A stretch of DNA of 64,000 nt. Source: Phycisphaerae bacterium (lineage in GTDB: Bacteria; Planctomycetota; Phycisphaerae; Phycisphaerales; Phycisphaeraceae). How positions within the stretch are numbered: the first letter of the stretch is position 1; the number at the start of each line of letters is the position of its first letter. The notes under the pieces were generated by a model. It worked only from the letters and a program-made list of their open reading frames with translations, searched no databases and was not told the origin of the DNA. The stretch is from positions 124,001-188,000 of the forward strand of contig JAUHZU010000005.1 of assembly GCA_030425705.1 (NCBI GenBank), in the 5' to 3' direction. The translations under genes were made by a program, and so were the position numbers. Below are positions 1-15,699 of this stretch, in pieces.

Positions 1-3381
<3,381 letters not shown>

Positions 3382-3400
3382 GGGGAGTGTCTTGTGGCTA

Positions 3401-3467
3401 GTGGTGAGTGACTAGTGGGGCCTGGACCGTTGTCTGGGGCGGGCGGCGAGCACTAGTCACTCACCAC
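3401..3467 (-). repeat. Long inverted repeat in the rpoB-rpoC spacer
   Basis: The arms 3401-3417 (gtggtgagtgactagtg) and 3451-3467 are perfect 17-bp reverse complements around a 33-bp G-rich loop. Pairing continues outward for five more base pairs (3394-3398 with 3470-3474) after a mismatch and a G-U pair. It fills most of the 105-bp gap between rpoB and rpoC. There is no U-run, so it is not a classical terminator. It could be an RNase III-type processing hairpin, an attenuator, or a copy of a dispersed repeat; the sequence alone does not decide. Confidence 0.75.
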
Positions 3468-3486
3468 CGGCCACCAGTCACTTGGG

Positions 3487-7287
<3,801 letters not shown>

Positions 7288-7749
7288 CGAGTTCCTCGAC
7301 TTCTTGAGGGTTGAAGGCGTGGGTTGTCGGGGTTGTATTGGCTGTGGACCGCCGAGTCCGTACCGTAGGGCTACCGCTACCGCGAACACGGCATCATACG
7401 GGATGCGAGGGGGTTCATCAACCCGGCCAGCCCGTTTTTTCTCGGCCGGCGGAGATTCTGGCCCGCGGTTTGCAAATCGACCCGCCGCCGGCCACCGTCA
7501 TCGATCGTAAATAATGTTTCCGCACATAGTTACATGCGATTCTTTGCTCGTTGGCGGATTCCCGCGTCCCGTAGGCGGCACGTCGGAGCGCGTCGGCGGG
7601 CTGATTGGCCTCCCGGCACACCGCGGCACCCGCGTTGAACCCGCTCGGCCGGCCCGCGTCCATTTCTGATAAGCACTTCTAAGGGTTCCCACCTCTCAGC
7701 CGTCTACCCCCTCGGCGGCCCCGGCCGCCGGGCCCTCTCAGGACCGACC
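7288..7749. other. 462-bp intergenic region upstream of rpoB and the ECF sigma gene
   Basis: Divergent spacer between rpoB (leftward) and the sigma factor (rightward). It must hold the rpoBC promoter unless transcription enters from elsewhere, but I found no convincing -35/-10 pair. A short GGGTT-CATC-AACCC hairpin followed by a T-run near 7421-7440 sits on the plus strand with no gene before it. Short open frames here look non-coding, and no tRNA or known riboswitch is recognisable. Confidence 0.5.
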
Positions 7750-8277
7750 ATGAATCAGCCGGCCAACGCCCCGCCCGCCACGCACGACGCCGAGGCGGCC
7801 CTGCGCGACTTCCGCGAACCGCTCGAACGCTACGCCGCCCACCTGCTCGGCGGCGACCACGCCCGGGCCCAGGATGTCGCCCAGGACACCTTCGAACGCC
7901 TGCTCCGACAGCCGGCCGAGCGACGCGACGAACTCACCGCCGGCCGGCTCAAGGCCTGGCTCTTCACCGTCTGCCGGAACCGCGCCCTGGACATCCGACG
8001 CAAGGAGCGACGCATGACCGCACTCACCCCGCCCATCGCCGACGCACAACACGCCCACGCCCCGGGCCCCGCCGACGCCGCCCAGCAGCGCGACACCCAC
8101 GACGCTGTCCTCCAACGTATGGCCAAGCTCCCCGACAACCAGCAGGAAGTCCTCCGCCTCCGGTTCCACGGCGAACTCACCTACCCACAGATCGCCGAGG
8201 TCACCGGGCTCAGCGTCGGTCACGTCGGTTACCTCCTGCATCACGCGCTCAAGACCCTCCGCCAACAACTCGCCTGA
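7750..8277 (+). CDS. ECF-type RNA polymerase sigma factor
   Basis: 175-aa sigma-70 family protein of extracytoplasmic-function size. Region 2 is seen in the N-terminal half (HARAQDVAQDTFERLL, then AWLFTVCRNRALDIRRK for 2.3-2.4). Region 4 is C-terminal (LPDNQQEVLRLRFHGELTYPQ, then the helix-turn-helix IAEVTGLSVGHVGYLLHHAL). AGGA precedes ATG 7750. The next gene, 78 bp downstream, encodes a transmembrane protein with an anti-sigma-like N-terminus, so the two probably form a sigma/regulator pair. The signal sensed is unknown. Confidence 0.93.
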   Translation: MNQPANAPPATHDAEAALRDFREPLERYAAHLLGGDHARAQDVAQDTFERLLRQPAERRDELTAGRLKAWLFTVCRNRALDIRRKERRMTALTPPIADAQHAHAPGPADAAQQRDTHDAVLQRMAKLPDNQQEVLRLRFHGELTYPQIAEVTGLSVGHVGYLLHHALKTLRQQLA

Positions 8278-8355
8278 CGCATCACCCGCCGGACGCGGCG
8301 ACAGGATGCGACAACACAACTCCCCCACCCAACACCTCCGCACAGGAGACACCCC

Positions 8356-11300
8356 ATGACCACCGACCCCGCCTACGAACCGACCCCCACGCCCCACGGC
8401 TACAACGCCGAGGACCTCACCGCCTTCGCGCTCAACGAACTCGACCCCGACAGCGACACGCACCGCGCGATCGTCGCCGCGCTCGCCAACGACCCGGCCA
8501 TCCGCGCCGAGATCGACGCGATCACCGGCACCGCACAGCGCGTGAGCGACGCGCTGGCACACGAACCCGCGGCAGCAAGCTGCACAGGCATCCTGCCTGT
8601 TGCACCATCCCAACACAGCCAGGGCAACACCGCGAACCAGGCAGCTTCCGGCTCCCGCGCCCCGCTGTTCGCCCGGCCCGCGCTGCTCGCCGCCGGGTTC
8701 GCGCTCGCCGCCGGCGCGGCCGTCACCGTCGTGTCGATGCTCCAGCCCGGCCCCGGCCACACCCCGATCGCTAACCGTGCCACGGCCCCGCGCGGGATCG
8801 ACGCGATCCACGCCGCGCTGCAGGCCCCCGTCACCGCCTCGTTCCAGGACGCGCCGCTCCGCGAGGTCCTCGACGAGGTCCAGCGCACGACCCACGCCGA
8901 GTTGCACGTCGACTGGGACGCGCTGGCCGAGCGCGGCGTCTCGCCCGAGACGCGCCTCACCTTCGACGCCGACGGGCTACCGGCCCGCGACCTGCTGTCG
9001 CTCGCGCTCGCCGCGGCCTGGCAGCAACTGCCCCACCCCGACCCGGCCGTGTGGTCGGTCGGCCCCGAGGCGGTACACATCGAGCCGCGGTCGTCGCTGG
9101 TCCTCCGTTCGCTCGCGCAGGCCCAGACCGCACTCGCCGCGGCGAACCCCACCGACAACCGCCTGACCCCCCGCCAGGCCACCCTCGCCGACCACCCCGC
9201 CTGGCAACGGCCCGGCGAGGTGACGGACCTGATGCTGCAGCAGCGTACCGCACAGCGGCTGATGATCGAGACCCACCGCCTCGCGGCCCAGGCCGCCGAG
9301 GCCGCGCACGCCGAATCGGCTGAAGGCGGTGACGAGCAGCCGCCGGAAGCGTCCGACCTGCTGCGTGATGCCCGCCGACAGTTGGCCGAGCAGAAAGCCG
9401 CGGACGCCGCCGAGGCGGCCGGGGCGGGCCAATGGAATCTGGCGGTCCAGCTTTATGAAGAAGCGGCGATGCTCGCGCCGCAGGACGAAACGGTCCGGGC
9501 CGGCCTCGCCGCCGCCCAGGCCCAACGCAACCCCGGGCCGCACCCCGTGGACCCGCTGACCCACCGCGCGCAGGGCATCGCGATCGTGCGGCAGGAAACC
9601 GCCGCACGGTACGAGCAGGCGGCGCGGCGTGCACAACTTGCTCTCGACAAAGGCGAGTACGACGCCGCCATCGACGCGGTGATCGAGGCCCGCACGGTGC
9701 TCAACGCGAACCGGTCGGCCTTCGGCGAGAACGAGCGGAACGAGCTGGTCGCCCGGGCCGCCCGGATGCAGACCGAAATCAACAACACGCGCTCACGATA
9801 CGAATCCGAAATGGCTCGCCGCGCTGCGATGGAGCAGGAGGCCGCCGAGCGAGACGCAACCCATGAAGCTGATCAACGCCGATCCGAAGAGGTCCAAGCC
9901 CGCCTGCGCAGTGCCCGAGAACTACAAGCCAACCGCGACTACGCCGGCGCCCTGGCCGAGCTCGAAGCGGCCCAGTTCCTCGATCCCGACAACGCCGCGA
10001 TCGAATCGCTGCGTGAACTGACACGGGATGCCGTGGCCGGTACCGAATCCGTCCGCCTCCGGCGAGAGCTCGACCTGATGCGGTCCAATCAACAACTCAT
10101 CCCAAACACTGACGGTTTGCCGGAGTTTGACCGCTACGCCGTCCCCAGTGTCGAGCGGCTGGGCGAGCTCTCTGACGCGCCAAACGCGGCGAGCATGTAT
10201 TACGCCCAGGGGCTCGGCTTGAACGCCGGCGATGGGTACTACCTGCAGGACGGCTTGTCGCGCTACGACTCGACCGCGGGTGATGTCATGCTCGGGACGT
10301 CGGTGCAGCACTACGGGGTGCAACTCGGCCGATCGCCCCAGCCGATCGCCGCGGAGACCGGCTTCGCGCTCGCGAACCGGCCGGCCGCCACTGCAGCGCC
10401 GGCCCGTGGCGCAGGTGGGCTCCGGGACCGCAGCGGGTCCGCCGGCCGAGGGCTGGAACGCGGCGAAACCGTGCTGGCCGAGGACCTGGTGCGCGGCATC
10501 GCGCCCGAGGAGCCCGACCACGACGGCGACGGCGAGCTGGGCGACAAGCTCGCCACGCTGCAAGAACAGCAAGCGCAGCTCCAGCAGCGCCTGTTCGAGT
10601 TCCAGCGGCCCGGCGTCGATCCGAACCAGCTCACCCGCGACACCTACGCGCTGGTCAACGACAACCCGTTCCACACCGGGCTCAACGACCCGCTGTCGAC
10701 CTTCTCGGTCGATGTCGACACCGCCGCGTACACCCTCGTCCGCCGGCAGGTCCAGCAGCAGCACTCGGCCCCGGTGCCGGGCGCGGTGCGCATCGAAGAG
10801 CTCATCAACTACTTCGACTACCGCTACACCGCGCCGGTCGTCGAGCCGGAGATGCTCGACCACGGTGTGGTCACGCAGGCGTCGATCCAGCGCCTCGCGG
10901 CCGACGACGACACCTTCGCGCCGTTCGCGACGCACGTCGAGGTCGCCGACTGCCCGTGGGCCGAGGGCCACCAGCTCGTCCGCATCGGCATCAAAGGCAT
11001 GGAGGTCGCGCAGGAAGACCGCCCGGCGGCGCACCTGACGTTCCTGCTGGACGTGTCCGGCTCGATGAGCAGCGACAACAAGCTGCCGCTGGTGAAAGAA
11101 TCGATGCGGCTGCTGCTGACCCAGCTCAACCCGGAAGACCACGTGAGCATCGTCGTCTACGCGGGCGCGGCGGGGCTGGTCCTCGAAAACGCCTCGGCCG
11201 GCGACCCCGCGGCGATCGAGGACGCGCTGAACAAGCTCTCCGCCGGCGGGTCGACCGCGGGCGGCGCGGGCATCGAGCTGGCGTACAAGGTCGCGCAGGA

Positions 11301-12438
11301 CCACTACGTCCCCGGCGGGGTCAACCGCGTCATCCTCTGCACCGACGGCGACTTTAATGTCGGCATCTCCGACCGCGACCAGCTCGTCGAGCTCATCAAG
11401 CAGAAGGCCAACCCCGAGCCCGACGCCGACGGCCAGCCGCGCGGCGTGTACCTCAGCGTGCTCGGCTACGGGATGGGCAACCTCAACGACCAGATGATGG
11501 AGCCGCTGACCAACGCGGGCAACGGGCATTACGCCTACATCGACTCGGCCGAGGAAGCCCAGAAGGTCATGGTCGAGCAGGTGGGCGGCACGCTTGTCGC
11601 GATCGCCAAGGACGTGAAGGTGCAGGTCGAGTTCAACCCGTCGCGGGTGCTCGCGTACCGTCTGATCGGCTACGAGAACCGCATCCTCGCGGCGGAAGAC
11701 TTCGCCAACGACACGGTCGATGCCGGCGACATCGGCGCGGGCCACACGGTGACCGCGCTGTACGAGGTCGTGCCCTTCCCCGACGACGGGCTGGGCGACG
11801 AGGAGGCGCTGCGGCAGGTGAAGCTGCAACTCGAGGCGCTGGACGAGGCGCTGGCGTTCAGCACGTCGGTCCTGCAGAACACGCCATTGACGGACGAGCA
11901 GTACCGCAAGCTGGCGGGGTCGATCCGGCTGATGCAGCAGCAGCGCGACGTCGCCGCGGCCGTGCAGAGCCGGGCCAAGCGGGTGCCCCCGGCGATCACC
12001 GCGGCCGGCGGGATCGAGATGCGCTACCGCGACGACGCGGGGTTCATCGACGGGCTCGACGCGGTCGAGGAACTGATGGTCGTGAACCTGCGGTACAAGC
12101 CCGTCGACGCCCCGGCCGAGCAGGGCACGAGCCGGCTGATCCAGACCACCGTCGGGCTCGACGCCGTGCCGTTCAGCGACGCGAGCGAGGACACGCGCTT
12201 CGCCGCGGCGGTCGCGGGCTTCGGGATGGTGCTGCGCAACTCGCCCCACCGGGGGGACGCGAGCATGCAGTGGGTGATCGACACGGCCGGCGGCGCGCTG
12301 ACCCATGACCCGCACGGCTACCGCGCGGGCTTCGTCTCGCTCGCCGAGCAGACCCAGACGCTGCTGCCCGACGACCCGGAGAAGGACCGCAACGTGCTCG
12401 AACCCGCGGACGGCCGGGAGCCGATCCGCGAGCGTTGA
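8356..12438 (+). CDS. Transmembrane anti-sigma-like / von Willebrand A (YfbK-type) fusion protein
   Basis: 1360 aa. Residues 1-70 are a short acidic cytoplasmic segment in the place of an anti-sigma domain (no zinc-binding HxxxCxxC seen). One membrane helix lies at about 108-129. An STN-like module (SFQDAPLREVLDEV onward) covers about 155-215, followed by a coiled-coil/TPR-like region (about 300-560). From about 750 the protein matches the YfbK arrangement: VWA N-terminal domain (NDPLSTFSVDVDTAAYTL), a VWA domain with intact MIDAS DVSGSMS at about 899-905, and a DUF3520-like end. AGGAG precedes ATG 8356. It probably holds the upstream sigma factor at the membrane while the VWA part binds a periplasmic ligand; that role is inferred from gene order and topology. 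Confidence 0.88.
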   Translation: MTTDPAYEPTPTPHGYNAEDLTAFALNELDPDSDTHRAIVAALANDPAIRAEIDAITGTAQRVSDALAHEPAAASCTGILPVAPSQHSQGNTANQAASGSRAPLFARPALLAAGFALAAGAAVTVVSMLQPGPGHTPIANRATAPRGIDAIHAALQAPVTASFQDAPLREVLDEVQRTTHAELHVDWDALAERGVSPETRLTFDADGLPARDLLSLALAAAWQQLPHPDPAVWSVGPEAVHIEPRSSLVLRSLAQAQTALAAANPTDNRLTPRQATLADHPAWQRPGEVTDLMLQQRTAQRLMIETHRLAAQAAEAAHAESAEGGDEQPPEASDLLRDARRQLAEQKAADAAEAAGAGQWNLAVQLYEEAAMLAPQDETVRAGLAAAQAQRNPGPHPVDPLTHRAQGIAIVRQETAARYEQAARRAQLALDKGEYDAAIDAVIEARTVLNANRSAFGENERNELVARAARMQTEINNTRSRYESEMARRAAMEQEAAERDATHEADQRRSEEVQARLRSARELQANRDYAGALAELEAAQFLDPDNAAIESLRELTRDAVAGTESVRLRRELDLMRSNQQLIPNTDGLPEFDRYAVPSVERLGELSDAPNAASMYYAQGLGLNAGDGYYLQDGLSRYDSTAGDVMLGTSVQHYGVQLGRSPQPIAAETGFALANRPAATAAPARGAGGLRDRSGSAGRGLERGETVLAEDLVRGIAPEEPDHDGDGELGDKLATLQEQQAQLQQRLFEFQRPGVDPNQLTRDTYALVNDNPFHTGLNDPLSTFSVDVDTAAYTLVRRQVQQQHSAPVPGAVRIEELINYFDYRYTAPVVEPEMLDHGVVTQASIQRLAADDDTFAPFATHVEVADCPWAEGHQLVRIGIKGMEVAQEDRPAAHLTFLLDVSGSMSSDNKLPLVKESMRLLLTQLNPEDHVSIVVYAGAAGLVLENASAGDPAAIEDALNKLSAGGSTAGGAGIELAYKVAQDHYVPGGVNRVILCTDGDFNVGISDRDQLVELIKQKANPEPDADGQPRGVYLSVLGYGMGNLNDQMMEPLTNAGNGHYAYIDSAEEAQKVMVEQVGGTLVAIAKDVKVQVEFNPSRVLAYRLIGYENRILAAEDFANDTVDAGDIGAGHTVTALYEVVPFPDDGLGDEEALRQVKLQLEALDEALAFSTSVLQNTPLTDEQYRKLAGSIRLMQQQRDVAAAVQSRAKRVPPAITAAGGIEMRYRDDAGFIDGLDAVEELMVVNLRYKPVDAPAEQGTSRLIQTTVGLDAVPFSDASEDTRFAAAVAGFGMVLRNSPHRGDASMQWVIDTAGGALTHDPHGYRAGFVSLAEQTQTLLPDDPEKDRNVLEPADGREPIRER

Positions 12439-13903: not shown

Positions 13904-14146
13904 TCAGCGGGCTGGGTCTTGGTCGTCGGGCTCGGTCCCACGGGCCGGGGGGTCATGTGGCGGGTCCGCCGTGTTCAGGGAGCCGATGCCGGTCACCACG
14001 ACCAGCCCCAGCATCGCACCGACGAACGCGCCGCCATACCACGACCCGGTCATCATTCACTGACCGTCGCCGCAGAGGACCTTCGAGTAGCCGACGGCGG
14101 CGCCGAGCGCTCCGCCGAGGACGAGCGCGAGCATGGGCTTGATCAT
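13904..14146 (-). CDS. DUF6132-like two-helix membrane protein with in-frame TGA (possible selenoprotein or nonsense mutant)
   Basis: Read from ATG 14146, which has AGGAG 7 nt upstream. The first 29 codons give MIKPMLALVLGGALGAAVGY and SKVLCGDGQ, then TGA at 14059-14057, then in the same frame MMTGSWYGGAFVGAMLG and a hydrophilic tail to the stop at 13904. As I recall the DUF6132 family, it is a two-helix membrane protein with a CxxGxCPxT-type linker. The TGA falls exactly on the second cysteine of that motif (CGDGQ-TGA-MMTG). Read through, the protein has 80 residues. Options: selenocysteine, a recent TGC/TGT-to-TGA mutation, or two separate tiny genes (14057-14146 and 13904-14056). The second part has no ribosome-binding site of its own. 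It lies downstream of gpx and msrA on the same strand. Confidence 0.5.
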
Positions 14147-14212
14147 CGTGGGGCTCCTGCGATTAGTAAAAAGAGCACGGCCGGGACAAGTGCAACCTGC
14201 GGTCGGTGTGTC

Positions 14213-14860
14213 TTATTCCGCGCCGGGCGTGCCGACCGGCGCTGGCTTGGCGAGTTCGGCCTGGATCGCGGCGACGACCTCTTCTGCATCGGGGCGGGTG
14301 CGCGGGGCGAACCGGGCAACCACCCGGCCGTCGCGTCCGACCAGGAACTTCTCGAAGTTCCAGGTGATCTCGCCGGCGAACCCGGGGTTGGTCTCCTCGC
14401 CGGTCAGGAATGCGTAGAGCGGGGCCTGGTCCTCGCCCTTCACCGAGAGCTTGGCGAACATCGGGAAGCCGACGCCGTAGTTCTGCTCGCAGAACACGGC
14501 GATGTCCGCGTCGGTGCCCGGCTCCTGACCGTTGAAGTTGTTCGCCGGGAAGCCGAGGATAGCCAGCCCGTCATCGGCGTACTGCTCGTGCAGCTGCTGA
14601 AGCTGCTCGTACTGCGGGGTGAGCCCGCACTGCGAGGCGGTGTTGACGATGAGAACGACCCGGCCGTGGTACTGCGACAGGTCGACCGGATCGCCGGTCA
14701 GCGCGGGCATCTCGAAATCCAGGACGGCAGGTGTGGAGGTGTCGGTCATAGGGGTTGGTGAGGGGCTCGGGCTGTCGGCGGAGGGTGTCTCGGCGCAGCC
14801 CAGCGCGACGGCGAGGGCCGTCAGAGGGAGCGCGAACCGTGTGGCTGTAACTGGTTTCAT
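14213..14860 (-). CDS. Glutathione peroxidase-family thiol peroxidase, lipoprotein
   Basis: 215 aa. The N-terminus is a lipoprotein signal (LTALAVALGC, lipobox Cys22), then a low-complexity Ser/Pro linker, then the GPx fold. Peroxidatic Cys78 lies in NTASQCGLTPQYEQL, the Gln of the tetrad in NGQEPG (Gln112), and Trp167-Asn168 in ITWNFEKF. A second cysteine in VFCEQNYGVGFPMF (about 124) could resolve the disulfide. The enzyme therefore uses cysteine, not selenocysteine, and acts outside the inner membrane. It is 45 bp downstream of msrA and likely cotranscribed, forming a periplasmic oxidative-damage repair unit. Reductant and substrate specificity are unknown. Confidence 0.93.
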   Translation of the reverse strand: MKPVTATRFALPLTALAVALGCAETPSADSPSPSPTPMTDTSTPAVLDFEMPALTGDPVDLSQYHGRVVLIVNTASQCGLTPQYEQLQQLHEQYADDGLAILGFPANNFNGQEPGTDADIAVFCEQNYGVGFPMFAKLSVKGEDQAPLYAFLTGEETNPGFAGEITWNFEKFLVGRDGRVVARFAPRTRPDAEEVVAAIQAELAKPAPVGTPGAE

Positions 14861-14905: not shown

Positions 14906-15607
14906 TCAGTCGCGCAGCAGGTCGGGGTATGCCTCGCGGGTGTGCTCGACCTTGGGCTGGGAGACACCGCGGATGTAGCCGGCGTCGGGGTTGTTGCGGG
15001 CATAGTCCTGGTGGTAGGTCTCCGCGGGGTAGAAGGCGTGGCCGGTCTCGATGGTGGTGACGATCCGGCCGCCGTACTGCGGGGTGCCGTTGAGCTGGGT
15101 GATGTAGGCGCGGGCGATCTGTTCCTGCTCGGCGCTAAGCGGGAAGATGGCCGAGCGGTACTGCGTGCCGCGGTCGTTGCCCTGCCGGTTGAGCTGGGTC
15201 GGGTCGTGCGCGGTGGTGAAGAAGACCTTGAGCAGTTGCTCGAAAGAGATCTTTGCGGGGTCGTAGGTGATACGGACGGCCTCGGCGTGTCCGGTCGTGC
15301 CGGTGCAGACCGTGCGGTAGTCGGCCGTGTCTTCCGCGCCGCCGATGTAGCCCGACTCGACATCGCTGACACCGTCGAGCATCTCGTAGACGGCCTCGAC
15401 GCACCAGAAGCACCCGCCGGCGAGGATGGCCTGCCGTGTCTGCGGGGCGTCCGGGTCCGCGTCGGCATGCGCCTGCTCGGTCAGCTCGGCGTCGGGCACC
15501 TGCGCCGGGTCGGGGACGTCGTGTCGGCTGCACGCGCTGCCGGCGAACGAGAAGACGAGCATGGCGAGGGCTCCAAAGGCGATGACCAGGATCGGGCGGG
15601 CTTGCAT
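14906..15607 (-). CDS. msrA: Peptide-methionine (S)-S-oxide reductase, lipoprotein
   Basis: 233 aa from ATG 15607, which has GGAG upstream. The open frame extends further but would bury the signal peptide. The N-terminus [16 protein letters not shown] is a membrane signal with a candidate lipobox Cys26 (SFAGSAC). The MsrA motif GGCFWCVEA places the catalytic Cys at 66, and the family's GYxGG and YHQDY-type residues are present ([18 protein letters not shown]). It reduces methionine-S-sulfoxide in exported proteins. It is first of the msrA-gpx-DUF6132-like unit. A TACGAT -10 candidate lies at 15648-15643. Confidence 0.94.
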
Positions 15608-15642
15608 GAGGCGGGCACTCCGTTGAGGTCCACGGCAGCCAT

Positions 15643-15648
15643 ATCGTA
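15643..15648 (-). promoter_or_regulatory. -10 candidate for the msrA-gpx unit
   Basis: TACGAT on the minus strand, 35 nt before the msrA start, leaving a short leader that contains the GGAG ribosome-binding site. Confidence 0.4.
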
Positions 15649-15699
15649 GACACACCGGGGCCCCCCGGCACAACCCACGGCCGACGCCGGTTGTTCCCG

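Follow-up and report, generated by a model that had tools for sequence, protein, structure and literature searches.

A DUF6132 gene with an in-frame TGA

The window, meaning the whole stretch of 64,000 nucleotides analysed here from a Phycisphaerae bacterium (genome G000), carries on its minus strand, from 14146 to 13904, a gene whose read-through translation is an 80-residue protein of the DUF6132 family (PF19628). The features of the locus are as follows.

13904..14146, minus strand: DUF6132 gene read through TGA (translation, PF19628 match, structure model)
14057..14059, minus strand: in-frame TGA at the second conserved Cys, very probably read as selenocysteine (Sec) (alignment, TGA conservation)
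14154..14158, minus strand: AGGAG ribosome-binding site (sequence)
14030..14045, minus strand: candidate SECIS hairpin GUCGU[GGUAUG]GCGGC, loop 16 nt past the UGA, common to genome G058
14213..14860, minus strand: glutathione peroxidase (GPx) gene, Cys form, directly upstream (PF00255, E 2.9e-37)
14906..15673, minus strand: MsrA gene, Cys form, upstream of the GPx gene (PF01625, E 1.2e-60)

The product starts with the ATG at 14146 and reads, in order, MIKPMLALVLGGALGAAVGYSKVLCGDGQ, the TGA at 14059-14057 and MMTGSWYGGAFVGAMLG, continuing to a terminal TGA at 13906-13904; the part behind the internal TGA is, in full, MMTGSWYGGAFVGAMLGLVVVTGIGSLNTADPPHDPPARGTEPDDQDPAR, followed by that terminal TGA. 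An earlier note on this DNA had placed the feature correctly at 13904-14146 without giving its strand, and its description of a start with an AGGAG site (14158-14154) followed by an in-frame TGA was confirmed. The note had further called the product DUF6132-like, with the TGA in place of the second Cys. This is borne out by a PF19628 score of 34.9 bits over residues 2-50 when the TGA is read as Cys (curated cut-off 23.2) and by the alignment, in which the TGA sits on the second Cys of C-x-x-G-x-C, a Cys in the homologues. Alignments A2 and A3 were used; the 'invariant Cys' of alignment A4 was discarded because in some C-x-x-U forms the first Cys had been misplaced into the second-Cys column. 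When the two halves were scored separately against the PF19628 profile, the half before the TGA reached 17.9 bits and the half after it gave no match.

Reading frame after the TGA

The window gene was compared with its counterpart in G058, a genome of the same genus, with which it shares 49-53% identity in the alignment. Over the 21 codons following the TGA, the differences numbered 6, 3 and 11 at codon positions 1, 2 and 3, with a dN of 0.32 and a dS of 0.81, a ratio that is only moderately low; over the 27 codons preceding it, they numbered 9, 4 and 9, with a dN of 0.27 and a dS of 0.54. Judged from this comparison, the frame is kept past the TGA between the two genomes.

The earlier note had offered, as one alternative, two tiny adjacent genes; the second would restart at the ATG ATG that directly follows the TGA in the window. 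In G058, however, none of the 18 codons following the TGA is ATG, GTG or TTG, which excludes an immediate restart of a second gene in that genome, and in each of the 11 remaining TGA genomes the codon next to the TGA is no start. PF19628 also extends over both parts of the protein and does not recognise the second part alone. Two separate genes fit these data poorly, and such an arrangement is hardly credible.

Codon state in the genus and the phylum

The DUF6132 gene was found at the same syntenic place in four of the five genomes of the window's genus. The site codon is TGA in G000 and G058 and TGC in G076 and G088; the remaining genome, G139 (70% complete), gave no DUF6132 match. SelA was found in G000 and G058 and was not found in G076 (100% complete), G088 (89%) or G139.

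Across the phylum, a TGA occupies the second-Cys position in 13 genomes belonging to three lineages. The spacing is C-x4-U in G000, G058 and G796, C-x2-U in G350, G370, G782, G864, G870 and G919, and C-x5-U in G714, G723, G818 and G931, the last of which holds both a TGA form and a Cys form (L075:3972-4154 and L076). The position is a Cys in the Cys-form relatives that were read, and the TGA forms that were read are stand-alone proteins without thioredoxin. The G350 protein scores only 19.3 bits to DUF6132 itself, below the cut-off, and it is assigned to the family through the profile searches and through G370. The TGAs of G911 and of the Cys copy in G931 are the gene's own end and were left out of the count.

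These genomes were collected in several searches, whose genome samples for order, phylum and class overlap and the larger of which may have missed members. A PF19628 search of the order matched at least 6 of 301 genomes; two of these matches, L004 and L007, proved to be unrelated repeat proteins when the matched frame was read. A four-sequence profile matched at least 7 of 392 genomes of the phylum, a 14-sequence profile at least 46 of 397 genomes of the class, and a profile of the TGA forms at least 12 of 114 genomes in the order of G714; the G350 protein used as query matched 2 of the 9 genomes of its own order.

The earlier note had also raised a recent nonsense mutation, by which the TGA would be a true stop and the gene broken in this strain. 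TGA does serve as an ordinary stop in the window genome too, for example at the end of the MsrA gene, and a broken copy of so short a protein could be tolerated if the protein is dispensable, as the lack of a match in the incomplete G139 would allow. However, 13 genomes share this codon at this site, the frame is preserved beyond it, and SelA was found in all of the TGA genomes tested for it (11/11). A nonsense mutation fits poorly with this pattern and is very improbable. A TGA in this genome alone, with Cys codons in all close relatives, was an outcome that the earlier note had named as refuting a selenoprotein; it did not occur, since G058 and 11 further genomes have the TGA too, while two species of the genus, in which no SelA was found, have TGC instead.

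Selenocysteine machinery and its association with the TGA forms

The earlier note had named the absence of selA, selB, selC and selD from the genome as an outcome that would speak against a selenoprotein. A search for these genes showed that all four, selC being the gene for tRNA-Sec, are present in the window genome, where the following cluster was found.

L026 (G000:C14:655000-671606), 3048-11348: selenium cluster with selD, a gene for a putative selenate transport protein, PhnC- and PhnE-like genes, selB, selA and tRNA-Sec

selB and selA correspond to TIGR00475 and TIGR00474, respectively, and the tRNA-Sec has the anticodon TCA. The putative selenate ABC transporter substrate-binding protein matches TIGR04553 over its cut-off; the PhnC- and PhnE-like genes score below their equivalog cut-offs. 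In both G000 and G058 the selD gene itself carries an in-frame TGA, within CGGuAGK, and G350 likewise shows a TGA in its selD; a well-known Sec codon thus exists in the window genome.

SelA was found in 11 of the 11 TGA genomes tested (the 13 minus G796 and G818), in G370 as two pieces on two contigs. Among 44 Cys-only genomes it was found in 15 and not found in 29, the 15 including G699, whose site is unreadable. A one-sided Fisher test of TGA against SelA gave p 6.5e-5 (4.7e-5 without G699), a value that overstates the evidence because the genomes are related. In a tree of 51 domains (38 Cys and 13 TGA, some Cys rows being left out), the state changed four times, at least two of the changes falling on well-supported branches. 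One single clade of TGA forms was marginally rejected on few columns (p-AU 0.045), and an independent-pairs test had two well-supported pairs, too few to reach significance.

A TGA that encodes another amino acid, for example Trp, through near-cognate read-through or a changed code would fit the kept frame, taken by itself, equally well. The termination of the MsrA gene by TGA in the same genome, the presence of Cys rather than Trp at this position in the Cys-form relatives read, and the finding of SelA in every TGA genome tested all argue against it, and this reading is most unlikely. Because the same stop stands at the same key position in many relatives that own the Sec machinery, the window TGA is very probably read as selenocysteine and the gene would encode a DUF6132 membrane selenoprotein. 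At the level of sequence, the candidate selenoprotein put forward in the earlier note is strongly supported by the Sec genes, the conservation of the TGA in 13 genomes and its alternation with TGC. The ribosome would decode the TGA as selenocysteine by means of SelB and tRNA-Sec.

Candidate SECIS hairpin

The earlier note had pointed to a small ACC[GGGUCGU]GGU stem behind the TGA. This stem exists, but a better hairpin, GUCGU[GGUAUG]GCGGC, was found, with its loop at 16 nt. According to section 5 of a 2026 review (PMC13188914), a bacterial SECIS has an apical loop of 3-9 nt whose first two positions include a G; the loop lies 16-37 nt from the UGA, and the element folds at or below -7.5 kcal/mol. 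The hairpin GUCGU[GGUAYG]GCGGC of G000 and G058 fits this published rule, with -17.1 and -12.4 kcal/mol, respectively, for 38 nt, but is no longer part of the minimum-energy fold once the folded stretch reaches 44 nt in G058 or 56 nt in G000.

As a control, 3158 codon positions were examined, and 67% of them meet the hairpin rule as coded, without an energy limit. Under a stricter rule, 2.9% of these positions still qualify, as do 2 of 13 TGA forms and 1 of 10 Cys forms. In G742 (L059), the Cys form has the same GSWYGG peptide as the window protein and nearly the same hairpin; this genome bears SelA, and its gene is perhaps a Sec-to-Cys reversion. Given the 67% control rate and the G742 hairpin, the window hairpin agrees with a Sec reading but is no proof of it, and an argument for a SECIS from hairpins alone was dropped after the control. 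An Rfam scan of the region gave no credible match; SECIS_1 (RF00031) was silent in all control genomes, so its silence here says nothing. Within the selenoprotein reading, the hairpin just downstream of the TGA probably assists Sec decoding.

Gene neighbourhood

The earlier note had listed a GPx and msrA as operon partners, and both were located upstream on the same strand (PF00255, PF01625). The GPx gene precedes the DUF6132 gene in all four gene-bearing genomes of the genus, and in all four a YegS-like lipid kinase gene faces the DUF6132 gene, with one extra open frame between them in G076. MsrA does not adjoin in G058, G076 and G088, where an Ogt-type gene (so named from NCBIfam in G058) or a like-placed ORF stands before the GPx gene instead. 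Within the TGA lineage with the most members, 3 of 3 genomes scanned have a QueF-like gene behind the TGA form (L079:5286-5657, L078:4512-4892 and L102:1804-2220); QueF is not a redox enzyme, and as a neighbour it gives no argument for a redox operon in that lineage.

Other surroundings were seen around Cys forms. On a Bacteroidota contig (L012:513-6186), a Cys-form DUF6132 gene follows genes for a rhodanese and an MBL-rhodanese and lies near genes for TauE, Sulf_transp (PF04143) and a Pyr_redox_2 flavoprotein. A PF04143 Sulf_transp gene is also a neighbour in G622, and a YgaP-like_TM gene in G313. In G653 (L017:607-1040), the start of a Cys-form DUF6132 gene lies within a DUF1858 gene; DUF1858 is itself among the selenoprotein families listed in the 2026 review (PMC13188914).

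Structure and possible function

The structure model of the window protein, which is of moderate confidence (mean pLDDT 71.4, pTM 0.36), places helices at residues 2-20 and 36-57, with Cys25 and Sec30 in the short loop that joins them. Both helices are glycine-rich, and hydrophobic windows flank the two-Cys loop on both sides; a charge analysis indicated neither membrane side for the loop. Of 43 relatives scanned, 38 match DUF6132, and in 17 a thioredoxin domain (PF00085) shares a single open frame with it; one relative, in G829, carries a Redoxin/AhpC-type (peroxidase) domain.

L050, L051, L052, L058 and others; L068:1081-1680: Cys-form DUF6132 fusions (thioredoxin in 17/43, Redoxin/AhpC-type once)

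These fusions and the gene neighbours suggest a membrane-anchored thiol/selenol redox relay, a role that we consider possible, at somewhat below even chances. Cys25 and Sec30 would form a reversible selenenylsulfide, and the relay would connect the thioredoxin system with thiol peroxidases or further thiol enzymes by passing electrons between them, the partner here probably being the adjacent GPx and perhaps MsrA. Alternatively, the Cys/Sec pair of the same selenoprotein could carry sulfane sulfur rather than electrons, moving it at the membrane or across it in the form of a persulfide or selenosulfide. The rhodaneses, TauE, Sulf_transp and Pyr_redox_2 around the Cys form on L012, and the Sulf_transp and YgaP-like_TM neighbours in G622 and G313, are in keeping with sulfur transfer, whereas the GPx neighbour in 4/4 of the window's genus, the thioredoxin domain in 17/43 relatives and the Redoxin-type domain in one speak against it. 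Sulfur transfer is rather unlikely, and service to peroxidases is favoured. Taken as a whole, the account of a small DUF6132 selenoprotein decoded through SelB and tRNA-Sec, with a putative Cys25-Sec30 relay, is highly probable.

Relation to known selenoproteins

DUF6132 does not appear among the 119 families and subfamilies in Table 1 of the 2026 review (PMC13188914). A search of NCBIfam release 20 at E 0.1 assigned the window protein to none of its families; 47 NCBIfam families are matched by one or more of the 43 relatives, and the 25 listed are mainly thioredoxin-type and include TsoB. A literature search on DUF6132 and PF19628, with preprints and most subscription journals outside its scope, found no report of such a selenoprotein among the titles and opening lines of abstracts listed; on DUF6132 it found one paper, which to judge by its title deals with sugar transporters, and on PF19628 none. 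A 2016 study covers the selenoproteins of three Planctomycetes (PMC4807772), and an earlier mention of the family is possible.

The window protein resembles the DUF6132 Cys forms in its profile family and in its two helices with C-x-x-G-x-C between them, and differs from them in that the second Cys is a TGA (Sec), with spacings of C-x2-U, C-x4-U and C-x5-U among the TGA forms. With the selenoproteins of Table 1 of the review it shares a UGA at a redox Cys and the SelA, SelB and tRNA-Sec system, many of them being of the CxxU type, whereas no family listed there is DUF6132 (PMC13188914). YeeE/YedE (PF04143), which that table also includes, is a membrane transport family with a Sec form, and genes of it lie near two Cys-form DUF6132 genes; it is a separate family with a different motif, GUxSG.

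The findings point to a new family of selenium-containing proteins. We tentatively propose, at odds of roughly one in three, that DUF6132 is a new selenoprotein family forming a minimal two-helix Cys-Sec relay between thioredoxin and thiol peroxidases, in which Sec was repeatedly gained or lost within Planctomycetota and the spacing ranges from C-x2-U to C-x5-U. Ordinary gene callers would truncate such genes at the TGA. Selenocysteine usually marks a catalytic redox residue, and its presence would therefore offer a testable role for this functionally uncharacterised family. A small membrane-protein family would be added to the bacterial selenoproteome, one in which Sec and Cys appear to be exchanged in step with the presence of the Sec machinery inside a single genus.
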